From positions 252,292 through 316,291 of the forward strand of contig NZ_LR701479.1 of assembly GCF_902498745.1 (NCBI RefSeq): a stretch of DNA of 64,000 nt, given 5' to 3'. The stretch comes from Erythrobacter sp. EC-HK427 (GTDB lineage Bacteria; Pseudomonadota; Alphaproteobacteria; Sphingomonadales; Sphingomonadaceae). Position numbers and translations under genes: made by a program. Positions 21,834 to 61,805 of the stretch are shown here, one piece after another. The notes under the pieces are model-generated. The model did not search any database, was not told the DNA's origin, and saw only the letters and a list, made by a program, of their open reading frames with translations. Every line of letters starts with the position of its first letter. Position 1 is the first letter of the stretch.

Positions 21834-21918
21834 GCGGGCGTGGCGGAACTGGTAGACGCGCTGGTTTTAGGTACCAGTATCTTACGATGTGGGGGTTCGA
21901 GTCCCTTCGCCCGCACCA
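21834..21918 (+). tRNA. tRNA-Leu (anticodon TAG)
   Basis: Acceptor GCGGGCG pairs with CGCCCGC followed by ACCA, so CCA is encoded. The D-arm has GGTAGACGC, and the anticodon stem CTGGT/ACCAG encloses the loop TTTAGGT with anticodon TAG. A variable arm of type II length and GGTTCGAGTCC in the T-arm are present. It sits 59 bp before the trigger factor gene. Confidence 0.96.
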
Positions 21919-34039: not shown

Positions 34040-34150
34040 CACCCACAGACCGTTTGTCCTGAGCTTGTCGAAGGACTGCTTTCCTTCTGGCCTTGCGCAA
34101 AAGGGAAATACAGCCCTTCGACAGGCTCAGGGCAGTCGGATCATGGGGTA
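34040..34150 (+). repeat. Family B palindromic element, short form, copy 1
   Basis: TTGTCCTGAGCTTGTCGAAG (34054 onward) at the left and CCCTTCGACAGGCTCAGGGC at the right are inverted arms around a spacer of about 32 bp containing CCTTCTGG and TGCGC. The same spacer words occur in the copy at 56003. It separates the fasciclin promoter from the anti-sigma gene. Confidence 0.88.
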
Positions 34151-40347: not shown

Positions 40348-41313
40348 TCATCGATGAGAACCACCCAGTTGGTCGATAAGTTCCAACATATCGGCGGGAA
40401 TTTCGCTTGCGAACCGGCAAAAGTTACCCGTCACCGGATGTTCGAAGCCGAGAATCGCCGCGTGGAGCGCCTGACGGGTGAACGGCATCGCTTTCAGCGT
40501 GGCCCTGAGGGGTGCAGGTGTGCGTCCATAAACAGGGTCTCCCAATAACGAATGACCAATTGAAGCAAGGTGAACCCGCACCTGGTGGGTTCGCCCTGTT
40601 TCAAGGCGGCATTCGATCAGACTGGCGTGATCGAGCCGCTCTATGGTTGTGTAATGGGTGACAGCGGTTTTGCCGCGCAAGGAATCCTTGGGCAGCACCG
40701 CCATTTTCTTTCGGTCGGCGTCCGAACGGCCCAGCCGCGCGTCCACCGTGCCGCTGGCGGGGTTCGGGTGGCCGCCACAGACCGCGAAATAGGCGCGTTC
40801 GAGCGAATGGTCGGCGAATTGCCGCGCCAGCCCTTCATGCGCCTTGTCGGTTTTGGCGACCACCAGCAGGCCGGAGGTGTCCTTGTCGATCCGGTGGACG
40901 ATGCCGGGCCGCGCGACGCCGCCGATGCCGCTGAGCGAGCCTTTGCCGTCTTTGGCGCAATGGTGCAGCAGCGCATTGACCAGCGTGCCATCGGGATTGC
41001 CTGCCGCAGGGTGGACGACCATGCCCGCAGGCTTGTCGACGACGATCAGATGCGCGTCCTCGAACACCACGGTGACGGGGATATCCTGTGGAAGCGCCTG
41101 TGGATTATCCGGGGGCGGAATGTGGATAGAAAAGCTGGAGTTCGCTTGAACTTTGGCCGAGGGGCTGGTGGCGGGCTTGCCGTCAATCAGCACTTTCCCG
41201 TCCGCAATCAACGCCTTGATCCGCTCGCGGCTGAGATCGGTGACAGCAGCGAGCGCCTTGTCGAGGCGGGCGGGGGTCTGGATAATTCCTGTGCGTGTTT
41301 CGCCTTCGGTCAC
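40348..41313 (-). CDS. rluD: RluD-type 23S rRNA pseudouridine synthase
   Basis: Modifies uridines in 23S rRNA helix 69. The 321-residue protein has an S4 domain (about 15-65, RLDKALAAVTDLSRERIKALI) and the catalytic HRIDKDTSG with Asp143, followed by LETGRTHQVRVHL. Overall length and N-terminal layout match RluD better than the RluC-type protein at 3454-4602. Its promoter would lie in the short gap (41314-41373) now occupied by a family B arm and shared with the divergent GIY-YIG gene. Confidence 0.92.
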   Translation of the reverse strand: MTEGETRTGIIQTPARLDKALAAVTDLSRERIKALIADGKVLIDGKPATSPSAKVQANSSFSIHIPPPDNPQALPQDIPVTVVFEDAHLIVVDKPAGMVVHPAAGNPDGTLVNALLHHCAKDGKGSLSGIGGVARPGIVHRIDKDTSGLLVVAKTDKAHEGLARQFADHSLERAYFAVCGGHPNPASGTVDARLGRSDADRKKMAVLPKDSLRGKTAVTHYTTIERLDHASLIECRLETGRTHQVRVHLASIGHSLLGDPVYGRTPAPLRATLKAMPFTRQALHAAILGFEHPVTGNFCRFASEIPADMLELIDQLGGSHR

Positions 41314-41327
41314 AACCCCTCCACCGA

Positions 41328-41352
41328 CTGCCCTGAGCTTGTCGAAGGGCTG
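41328..41352 (+). repeat. Family B arm, left side of the GIY-YIG gene
   Basis: A 25-bp arm CTGCCCTGAGCTTGTCGAAG plus GGCTG, itself nearly palindromic at its ends. It lies 21 bp before the nuclease start codon and matches the left arms of the hairpin copies at 34054 and 56011. Confidence 0.88.
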
Positions 41353-41373
41353 CTTTTCTCTTTAGACCGAACC

Positions 41374-41730
41374 ATGCCCTTTTGGACTTACATCCTGCAC
41401 TGCCACACCGGCAAGTTTTATACCGGCCATACCGACGATTTGGAGCGCAGGGTCTGGCAGCACGAACAAGGCCTGTTGCCCGGATTCTCGCGCGATTGGC
41501 GCCCCGTAAAGCTGGTCTGGTCGCAGGAATTTGTGACGCGCGAGGAGGCGAAGGCGGCGGAAAAGCAGATCAAGGGTTGGTCAAGGAAGAAGAAGCTAGC
41601 ACTTATTCGTGGCGATTGGGATGCGGTGTCGCGCTATGCCAAAAGCAAGGGCAGCCGTTGGCCCTTGGCCAGCTTCGCTTCCGACAAGCTCAGGGCAATC
41701 GGAAAAGGAGAGCGGTGTTTTGTTGGATAA
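41374..41730 (+). CDS. GIY-YIG nuclease domain protein framed by family B arms
   Basis: A 118-residue single-domain GIY-YIG protein of the short UPF0213/YhbQ-like class. The GIY-equivalent is WTYILHC (Tyr6) and the YIG-equivalent FYTGHTDDLERRVWQHE (Tyr16, Arg25). A conserved Glu63 follows in EEAKAAEKQIKGWSRKKKLALI. The C-terminal residues about 101-109 (FASDKLRAI) are encoded by the right-hand family B arm, so the coding frame runs into the repeat. ATG 41374 starts 21 bp after the left arm. The gene plus arms looks like a discrete inserted cassette. Small GIY-YIG proteins of this class have no well-settled role. Confidence 0.9.
   Translation: MPFWTYILHCHTGKFYTGHTDDLERRVWQHEQGLLPGFSRDWRPVKLVWSQEFVTREEAKAAEKQIKGWSRKKKLALIRGDWDAVSRYAKSKGSRWPLASFASDKLRAIGKGERCFVG
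41678..41702 (-). repeat. Family B arm, right side, inside the GIY-YIG 3' end
   Basis: CTTCCGACAAGCTCAGGGC with ATCGG is the inverted counterpart of the left arm at 41328-41352. It encodes part of the GIY-YIG C-terminus and ends 5 bp before the GGAG that precedes the JAMM gene start. Confidence 0.85.
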
Positions 41731-42109
41731 AGCTGTCCTCGACCAAATCCGCACCCACGCCGCCAACTCTGCCCCGCAAGAATGCTGCGGCATCTTCACC
41801 GGCACTGCCAACCGCATCACCGCCGCGCAGCCCGCCGCGAATGTCCACCCTTCCCCCGAATCGCATTTCGAGATCGACCCCGCTGCCCTCATCGCCGCTC
41901 ACCGCGCGGCGCGCGGAGGCGGCGCGCAAGTGCTCGGCTACTACCACTCGCACCCCGATGGCCCTGCCAGACCATCGACTGAAGATCGGGCGCAAGCCTC
42001 AGGCGACGGGCGCATTTGGGCCATTATCGGGAAGGATTTGGATGTGACGTTGTGGCGGGACGACGAAAACCAGTTTACACCGCTTCCCTACACGGTGTCG
42101 CATAGCTAA
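41720..42109 (+). CDS. JAMM/MPN-domain metalloprotease, M67 family
   Basis: Predicted zinc isopeptidase-like enzyme of 129 residues. The JAMM motif is complete: Glu21 in QECCGIF, then H76-x-H78 in YYHSHPDG with Ser86 and Asp89 in RPSTED. Bacterial stand-alone JAMM proteins act in sulfur-carrier processing (for example of ThiS/MoaD-like proteins) among other roles. There is no ATG near the domain. I use TTG 41720, nine nt after GGAG; TTG 41723 is equally in frame. The start overlaps the GIY-YIG 3' end by 11 nt. Confidence 0.85.
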   Translation: MLDKAVLDQIRTHAANSAPQECCGIFTGTANRITAAQPAANVHPSPESHFEIDPAALIAAHRAARGGGAQVLGYYHSHPDGPARPSTEDRAQASGDGRIWAIIGKDLDVTLWRDDENQFTPLPYTVSHS

Positions 42110-44966: not shown

Positions 44967-45398
44967 GTGCCGGGGAGCCGGGCAGCCGCGTCCCTCTTTA
45001 TGGGGGCCGAGGAAAGTCCGGGCTCCACGAAACAAGGGTGGCGGGTAACGCCCGCCGACTCCGGACGTGTTCCGGGGTTAGGGAAAGTGCCACAGAGAGT
45101 ATACCGCCGATGGCCCGCGCTCCTTCTGGAGATTGGGGGCACAGGCAAGGGTGAAAGGGTGCGGTAAAAGCGCACCGGGGTTCTGGTAACAGCGCCCGCA
45201 TGGCAAACCCCACCCGGAGCAAGACCGCATAGGGGTCTCGCGCCTTACGGGCAGGAGTGTTTCGCTCCCATGAGACCCGGGTTGGTTGCTGGAGCATTGG
45301 AGCAATCCAATGCCTAGATGAATGGCTGCCCCTGCCGATACGGTCCCTTTTGGGATACCGTCGGCAGGACAGAACCCGGCTTACAGGCTCCCCGGCAC
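44967..45398 (+). ncRNA. rnpB: RNase P RNA, bacterial type A
   Basis: Catalytic RNA of RNase P, which matures tRNA 5' ends. The 5' GTGCCGGGGAGCC pairs with 3' GGCTCCCCGGCAC to close helix P1. The conserved GAGGAAAGTCCGGGCTCCA lies at 45008-45026, and the 3' signature GACAGAACCCGGCTTACAGG near 45368. Length of about 432 nt suits a proteobacterial type A RNA. Open frames overlapping it are artefacts. Confidence 0.95.
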
Positions 45399-45448
45399 TT
45401 TGGACTTTCCTACAGCAACGAAAGGCAAGCAATGCTTCGCCGGTGCCA

Positions 45449-56002: not shown

Positions 56003-56115
56003 GAACCCACTTGTCCTGAGCTTGTCGAAGGACTGTTTCTCCTTCTGGAATGCGCCAAGCTGCAAAGAAAAGTGCAATCCTTCGACAGGCTCAGGATGAT
56101 CGGGTCGTGGGTTGT
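56003..56115 (+). repeat. Family B palindromic element, short form, copy 2
   Basis: Left arm TTGTCCTGAGCTTGTCGAAG (56011 onward), right arm ATCCTTCGACAGGCTCAGGA, outer AACCCAC/GTGGGTT arms, and a spacer sharing CCTTCTGG and TGCGC with the copy at 34040. The whole 55868-56183 gap holds the terminator, two heptamer arrays and this element, and no gene. Confidence 0.88.
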
Positions 56116-61730: not shown

Positions 61731-61805
61731 GGGCGCGTAGCTCAGTGGTAGAGCACACCCTTCACACGGGTGGGGTCGCAAGTTCAATCCTTGCCGCGCC
61801 CACCA
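61731..61805 (+). tRNA. tRNA-Val (anticodon CAC)
   Basis: Acceptor GGGCGCG pairs with CGCGCCC then ACCA, so CCA is encoded. The D-arm is GCTCAGTGGTAGAGC. Anticodon stem CACCC/GGGTG encloses TTCACAC (anticodon CAC). The T-arm has GTTCAATCC. It lies 73 bp after sppA and 72 bp before the VirB2-like gene. Confidence 0.95.

Follow-up and report, generated by a model that had tools for sequence, protein, structure and literature searches.

We identified a putative mobile palindromic element in the 64,000-nucleotide stretch of DNA analysed here (the window, G000:C2:252292-316291), which lies in a host genome of 3.14 Mb. The host genus is probably Aurantiacibacter, since the GIY-YIG proteins of three same-genus loci (L122, L124 and L126) are identical to those of entries bearing that name (L037, L040 and L039, respectively). 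The element consists of a gene for a small single-domain GIY-YIG nuclease and two inverted arms, and we judge it probable that gene and arms together constitute a single mobile unit: a palindromic element with a nuclease that would act on its own type of arm. We observed framing of the gene by the arms, matching of arm types to enzymes, covariation within the arm hairpins, ends common to short and long copies, and presence/absence variation between genomes. It is probably the enzyme that spreads these repeats, including a class of the CGTC type found around related genes.

The gene-bearing element and its short copies

The element (Table 1) is intergenic, lying between rluA and a Prok-JAB gene. 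Its limits were set by the CCG and CGG tags; in 88 of 94 arms the tag lies three bases out from the stem, and the tags recur in same-genus copies. The element holds most of the GIY-YIG gene, whose stop codon lies beyond the element end, and the right terminal repeat codes for part of the end of the protein, the right arm being translated within the ORF as ...ASDKLRAIG.... The first-pass annotation had described both the inverted arms enclosing a small GIY-YIG gene and the coding of the C-terminal part by the right arm, and both descriptions hold. In this gene-bearing copy the right arm is degraded and additional sequence is present. Matches to the arm with up to three mismatches numbered 6 in the window, against 0.14 expected. 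The window also contains an RNase P RNA (class A; 44970-45399) and two tRNAs (21834-21915 and 61731-61802), identified with Rfam and ordinary in kind.

Table 1. Features of the element, its neighbours and its short copies in the window
Feature	Position	Strand	Details
Gene-bearing element	41324..41702	+	379 bp, outer CCG to outer CGG
Left terminal repeat	41324..41363	+	CCG tag, NNN, GCC stem, core CTGAGCTTGTCGAAG, GGC stem, inner TGCTTTTCTCTTT; stem covaries; inner portion common to short copies
Left arm	41332-41348	+	exact
Left-repeat core CTGAGCTTGTCGAAG	41333-41347	+	15 nt
GIY-YIG nuclease gene	41374..41730	+	ATG 41374, stop 41730, 118 aa; PF01541, 61.1 bits
Right terminal repeat	41651..41702	-	right arm, variant right end GGCCAGCTTCGC, outer CGG
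Right arm	41678-41694	-	2 mismatches
rluA	40348-41313	-	neighbour of element; ORF that we take to be rluA
Prok-JAB gene	about 41720-42109		neighbour of element; PF14464
Short copy without gene	34050..34139	.	arms 34058-34074 and 34115-34131; 40 nt between
Short copy without gene	56007..56103	.	arms 56015-56031 and 56079-56095; 47 nt between; left tag CCA

Genome-wide, the arm word CCTGAGCNTGTCGAAGG is found 43 times per strand, and a reversed control gave 0. Around the exact arms we counted 49 F..R pairs in which one arm starts 33 to 85 bp from the other; besides these there are both arms of the gene-bearing copy and 6 arms that stand alone. The arms had earlier been treated as one repeat family (family B); most arm words stand in close inverted pairs. 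The consensus reads CCG-NNN-stem3-CTGAGC[TC]TGTCGAAG-stem3-TGC-TTTTCTT, followed by a spacer and then the inverse. As had also been proposed, the two short copies in the window have no gene and related spacers, with common TIR-like ends (CTG..TTTC ... AAA..CAG), and the copy at 34050..34139 folds into one long hairpin (z -5.9).

Three stem positions were complementary in 94, 94 and 93 of 94 distinct arms, where shuffles reached at most 84, 61 and 69, and this covariation runs through seven different fully paired triplets; at arm positions 4 to 9 pairing in the 94 distinct arms was not above shuffles (L119 and L149, the window's own gene, were excluded from these counts and from the protein tree below). 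Because 79 of the 80 arms in 40 exact short pairs have kept their own stem, and only 3 of the 40 pairs match in triplet between their two arms, the single arm is the conserved unit. Among gene-bearing type-1 copies, both arms have the same triplet in 20 of 26. Recognition probably takes place arm by arm, in hairpin form, with close pairs held back from becoming long perfect palindromes. The folding of a single arm as DNA is weak (z about -0.65), which counts against our reading.

Site comparisons and the source of the short copies

The right end of the gene copy (GGCCAGCTTCGC[TA]TCCGACA[AG]GCTCAG or a close form) recurs in three short copies, at G000:C2 1645324, 2102375 and 2383794, and, as a fourth case, in the two matches that make up a pair at 336080-336195. 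Since they carry this variant right end, several short copies are likely, on sequence grounds, to be derivatives of the gene-bearing copy. When gene-bearing copies in the genus were compared with the short copies over the inner repeat, 6 to 11 of 13 positions were equal against a random mean of 2.8, in 23 arm readings some of which come from duplicate loci.

We read 30 same-genus loci at the rluA/Prok-JAB junction after searching 40 genomes. The element with its gene is present in 12, in one of them inverted (L138), and three have remnants of arms (L137, L129 and L146, the last with a gene fragment). Nine have both neighbours and no arms; for the other six, no second neighbour was found. The genomes G080 and G142 were aligned over about 87 kb at 88-97% identity (about 95%). 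We read 13 differing segments and, as judged by eye, each has palindromic sequence in one genome or both; in five the two genomes carry different families at one place, and several are an element in one genome and 16-37 bp of filler in the other. Elements are often swapped for other elements or short filler and not cleanly inserted, which counts against our reading. A listing of indels within alignment blocks gave none. At about G080:C1 540604-540690, a segment between inverted repeats is apparently inverted relative to G142.

A 149-bp piece of G080 with a type-4 pair is missing from G142, G210 and G125, where its flanks are exactly contiguous, and it was thus probably gained in G080. Outside the CCG and CGG tags it has 20 and 15 extra nucleotides, with no donor for these among the matches listed; the ends of this one clean insertion are therefore not exactly those of the arms, which counts against our reading. 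Empty sites and target duplications had been named beforehand as marks of movement: the former exist, in the nine same-genus loci without arms, whereas no duplication was seen in this one polarised insertion, which belongs to a sister arm type. Between G040 and G047 (94% identical, 200 kb each) we saw no clear presence/absence site, each having four arm clusters of which most are common to both. A type-1 pair also lies outside the alphaproteobacteria, on nine Moraxella plasmids, e.g. at about 2501-2554 of L243 (Moraxella osloensis plasmid); all nine found carry the element, and near-identical empty plasmid sites did not appear among them.

GIY-YIG homing enzymes act by cutting a target, and a nuclease of this type might have cut existing repeats and become inserted between two arms, in which case the repeats would spread by other means and the gene would be a parasite on them. 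The G080 and G142 sites that are occupied by different elements look as though the repeats were targets. Even so, we regard such an invasion as unlikely because the end that belongs to the gene copy turns up again in short copies, and the variant right end common to both argues for a recent common source of short and gene-bearing copies; the gene-bearing ends match short copies inside the arms too. In addition, the type-3 word, taken from two type-3 loci, is confined to the two genomes with a type-3 gene, where it numbers 10 and 16, and is absent from the other 194.

Related GIY-YIG genes, arm types and CGTC repeats

De novo inverted-repeat detection, with a score of 16 or more as threshold, found inverted arms framing 37 of 49 GIY-B loci of the order, GIY-B being defined by an E value up to 1e-19 in the search of the order's genomes. 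The same holds for 14 of 20 loci from other clades, for all three further short GIY-YIG genes of the host's own genome and for 10 of 26 remaining, mostly distant loci, a group that includes one Sphingomonadales locus (L075) and from which one of 27 was dropped for its short flank. No framing above the threshold was seen at 12 of the 49 GIY-B loci and 16 of the 26 more distant ones, which counts against our reading. Framed control genes numbered 2 of 674, one a GIY-YIG gene and the other a PDDEXK_3 nuclease gene. The latter (PF13366, at G080:C1:743353; repeat GTTCGCACAAAGACACAAAGACAC, score 18) is the sole framed control outside the GIY-YIG family and is perhaps a second small nuclease paired with repeats. 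Controls were ORFs of at least 90 aa taken with a crude script from 360 kb of G080 and 352 kb of G142, the set of 674 including the window as well. For the order, L150-L198 are the best matches in 196 genomes, 29 taken one per genome and 20 more chosen by hand. Genes of other clades were located by tblastn, and L219-L238 were hand-picked from that list of matches before their flanks were viewed, many from genomes with type-1 words and without a GIY-B gene.

Among 50 related loci collected, 25 are from Sphingomonadales; the window's arm word stands on both sides in 17 of these and a TGGCGAA variant in 2. Thus the arms recur in GIY-YIG genes of this class, whose lack of arms the first-pass annotation had named as speaking against its reading. 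The FDKLR-like peptide that it asked about is not conserved: 8 of 12 relatives with C-termini listed read the arm as PSTSS... in another frame, and we rejected the peptide as a common feature. Among seven plasmid GIY-YIG loci, inverted repeats were present at L239, L240, L242 and L246 and were not found at L241, L244 and L245; an S. meliloti 'pSymB' match was used for its flanks alone, as it holds hfq and hflX and is taken to carry chromosomal genes. Palindromes also frame the gene at some loci of Chloroflexi, Ignavibacteria, Legionella, Methylobacterium and Shinella, and are absent from other distant GIY-YIG loci inspected.

The other short GIY-YIG genes sampled are 35 to 46% identical to that of the window and are framed by different palindromes. 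Typical CGTC REPs, located with a detector slightly looser than the CGTC REP definition, stand on both sides of 11 of 23 other GIY-YIG loci with at least one head outward per side, against 0 of 619 controls. Over stretches of 352-360 kb a strict CGTC detector gave 13 hits against 10.5 shuffled and 16 against 5.0; because it is barely above shuffled sequence, it suits comparisons of flanks with controls and not genome-wide counts. Three patterns of the host genome's own CGTC families were absent from the window. According to the available text of Di Nocera 2013 (PMC3733652), CGTC REPs are known from five phyla with no enzyme reported, 'apparently lack a dedicated transposase', and are not reported to flank a transposase gene. 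These REPs have a CGTC or TGTC tag, an 8-9 bp stem, a 4-5 nt loop and a CCA tail, unlike the window family with its CCG tag and a variable 3-bp stem around a 15-nt CTGAGCNTGTCGAAG core.

Several arm types, set by eye, could be compared with the enzymes. Type-1 words have a median of 28.5 in 38 genomes with a GIY-B gene and of 0 in 158 without one, and at least 10 occur in 28 of the 38 and 22 of the 158 (within the family, in 24 of 33 and 18 of 80). The proposed tie between repeats and gene presence therefore stands, yet with those 22 repeat-bearing genomes beside it, among them G142 with 146 type-1 words and G162 with 83, both without a GIY-B gene. In the two genomes whose own gene has the TGGCGAA variant, this word numbers 44 and 24, compared with 0-10 in six others. 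For the type-2 word CGAGCGNAGTCGAG, counts range from 6 to 158 across the 9 genomes whose gene is labelled type 2; among the 187 genomes lacking such a gene, 16 reach 6 or more, one of them being G215 with 178. Placed on a protein tree with 85 members, the arm labels require 15 changes against a shuffled mean of 29.6, the tree resting on 92 columns with many forks open and near-copies among its rows that aid the clustering of type 1. Type 3 is one supported clade; type 4 is not clustered (5 changes, shuffled mean 5.9).

The 118-aa protein has the GIY-YIG domain and no further domain was found in it. The residues invariant in an alignment of 8 relatives are present, including Y6, Y16, G18, R26 and E63, and the nearest solved structures, the only PDB matches up to E 0.01, are the UPF0213 proteins 1zg2 and 1ywl. 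Slx1 is known to act on branched DNA. Single-domain bacterial GIY-YIG proteins have been placed in an Slx1-like cluster, where the Slx1 cluster is listed with 208 non-eukaryotic proteins (available text of PMC1564403), and the window protein, with the same single domain, may be a member. The repeats might instead be moved by a RAYT or a host factor, the GIY-YIG protein being a passenger or a hairpin-processing host nuclease kept nearby for regulation. Such a placement near Slx1 would agree with this, and so would the repeat-rich genomes without the gene; for these genomes, our own reading has to assume gene loss or another enzyme. We consider another mobiliser improbable all the same, as no match to Y1_Tnp (PF01797) was found in the host's own genome, no transposase gene flanked by CGTC REPs is reported in the source cited above, and arm type clusters with the GIY-YIG clade. 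Chance association of palindromes or ordinary terminators with a small gene is scarcely credible: a short pair is able to form a strong hairpin, but the framing controls (2/674 and 0/619), the reversed-word control of 0 and stem covariation beyond every shuffle all speak against it.

Proposed mechanism and known systems

In the mechanism that we propose for a mobile unit of gene and arms, an arm folds into a small hairpin tagged with CCG on its outer side (CCG-NNN-stem-CTGAGCNTGTCGAAG-stem). The nuclease would nick next to hairpins of the type found in its own arms, recognising them where the DNA is single-stranded or forms a cruciform. The piece so released or copied would reach its new site through host replication and repair. 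The short pairs, about 50 in number, would be non-autonomous copies, some derived from the gene-bearing copy, and sister GIY-YIG clades would serve other arm types likewise, CGTC-tagged REPs included. We infer the nicking of the arms, the driving of their spread and the way of insertion; an enzyme that nicks at hairpins, with insertion left to host repair, would agree with the covariation in the stems, the match between arm types and enzymes, and the irregular insertions. The weakest points of this reading are the genomes that have repeats and no gene and the want of clean insertions limited to the arms.

The parallel with RAYTs drawn in the first-pass annotation holds as an analogy, with short copies, a gene-bearing copy and a specific pairing of arm and enzyme, and extends to several arm types and CGTC REPs. 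As in REP/REPIN-RAYT systems, tagged short hairpins occur mostly in inverted pairs with short spacers, many per genome (here the 49 F..R pairs), one or a few copies flank a small nuclease gene, and the pairing is type-specific. However, the gene framed in REPIN/RAYT systems encodes an HUH tyrosine transposase (Y1_Tnp) and the tag is GTAG, whereas the window element frames a PF01541 gene with CCG-tagged hairpins and its sister clades have CGTC. Short copies with the termini of a gene-bearing copy are also a trait of MITEs and TIR transposons, which use a DDE or HUH transposase instead of a GIY-YIG protein.

GIY-YIG homing endonucleases and Penelope-like elements are known cases of a GIY-YIG nuclease in selfish DNA, as here, but the window element shows no sign of an intron or reverse transcriptase and does have gene-less short hairpin copies. 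A homing endonuclease sits in an intron, an intein or its own uncut target, whereas this element is intergenic and the nine same-genus empty sites have no arm at the junction. For Slx1-like and UPF0213 proteins, which resemble the window protein in domain content, the available text of PMC1564403 discusses repair, restriction and RNA metabolism and makes no connection to repeats, whereas the window protein is framed by them. A literature search covering sources other than preprints listed no paper tying GIY-YIG to REP, REPIN or CGTC repeats; in the available text of PMC9465073, PMC10928387 and PMC4642659, GIY-YIG and 'rayt' or BIME co-occur as separate table entries, unrelated remarks or an author's name. 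At L161, right-arm read-through joins the GIY-YIG frame to what we read as a SPOUT-type methyltransferase-like frame. A GIY-YIG/SPOUT fusion reported for Erythrobacter litoralis (available text of PMC1564403) may be the same insertion artefact.

In conclusion, the balance of evidence leans towards single-domain bacterial GIY-YIG nucleases being the missing mobilisers of CGTC REPs and CCG-tagged palindromes in several phyla, in parallel to REPs and RAYTs, with enzyme clades and hairpin types having diversified together. If so, a GIY-YIG partner would supply the enzyme for CGTC REPs across the five phyla in which they are known (PMC3733652, available text), and single-domain GIY-YIG proteins would gain a function. 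The PSTSSG and DKLRA peptides at gene ends, and perhaps the GIY-YIG/SPOUT fusion, would be arm read-through. The reading predicts that the enzyme nicks its matching hairpin specifically and that repeats cease to move once the gene is deleted, and it would mean a second, chemically different route to palindromic repeats in bacterial genomes.
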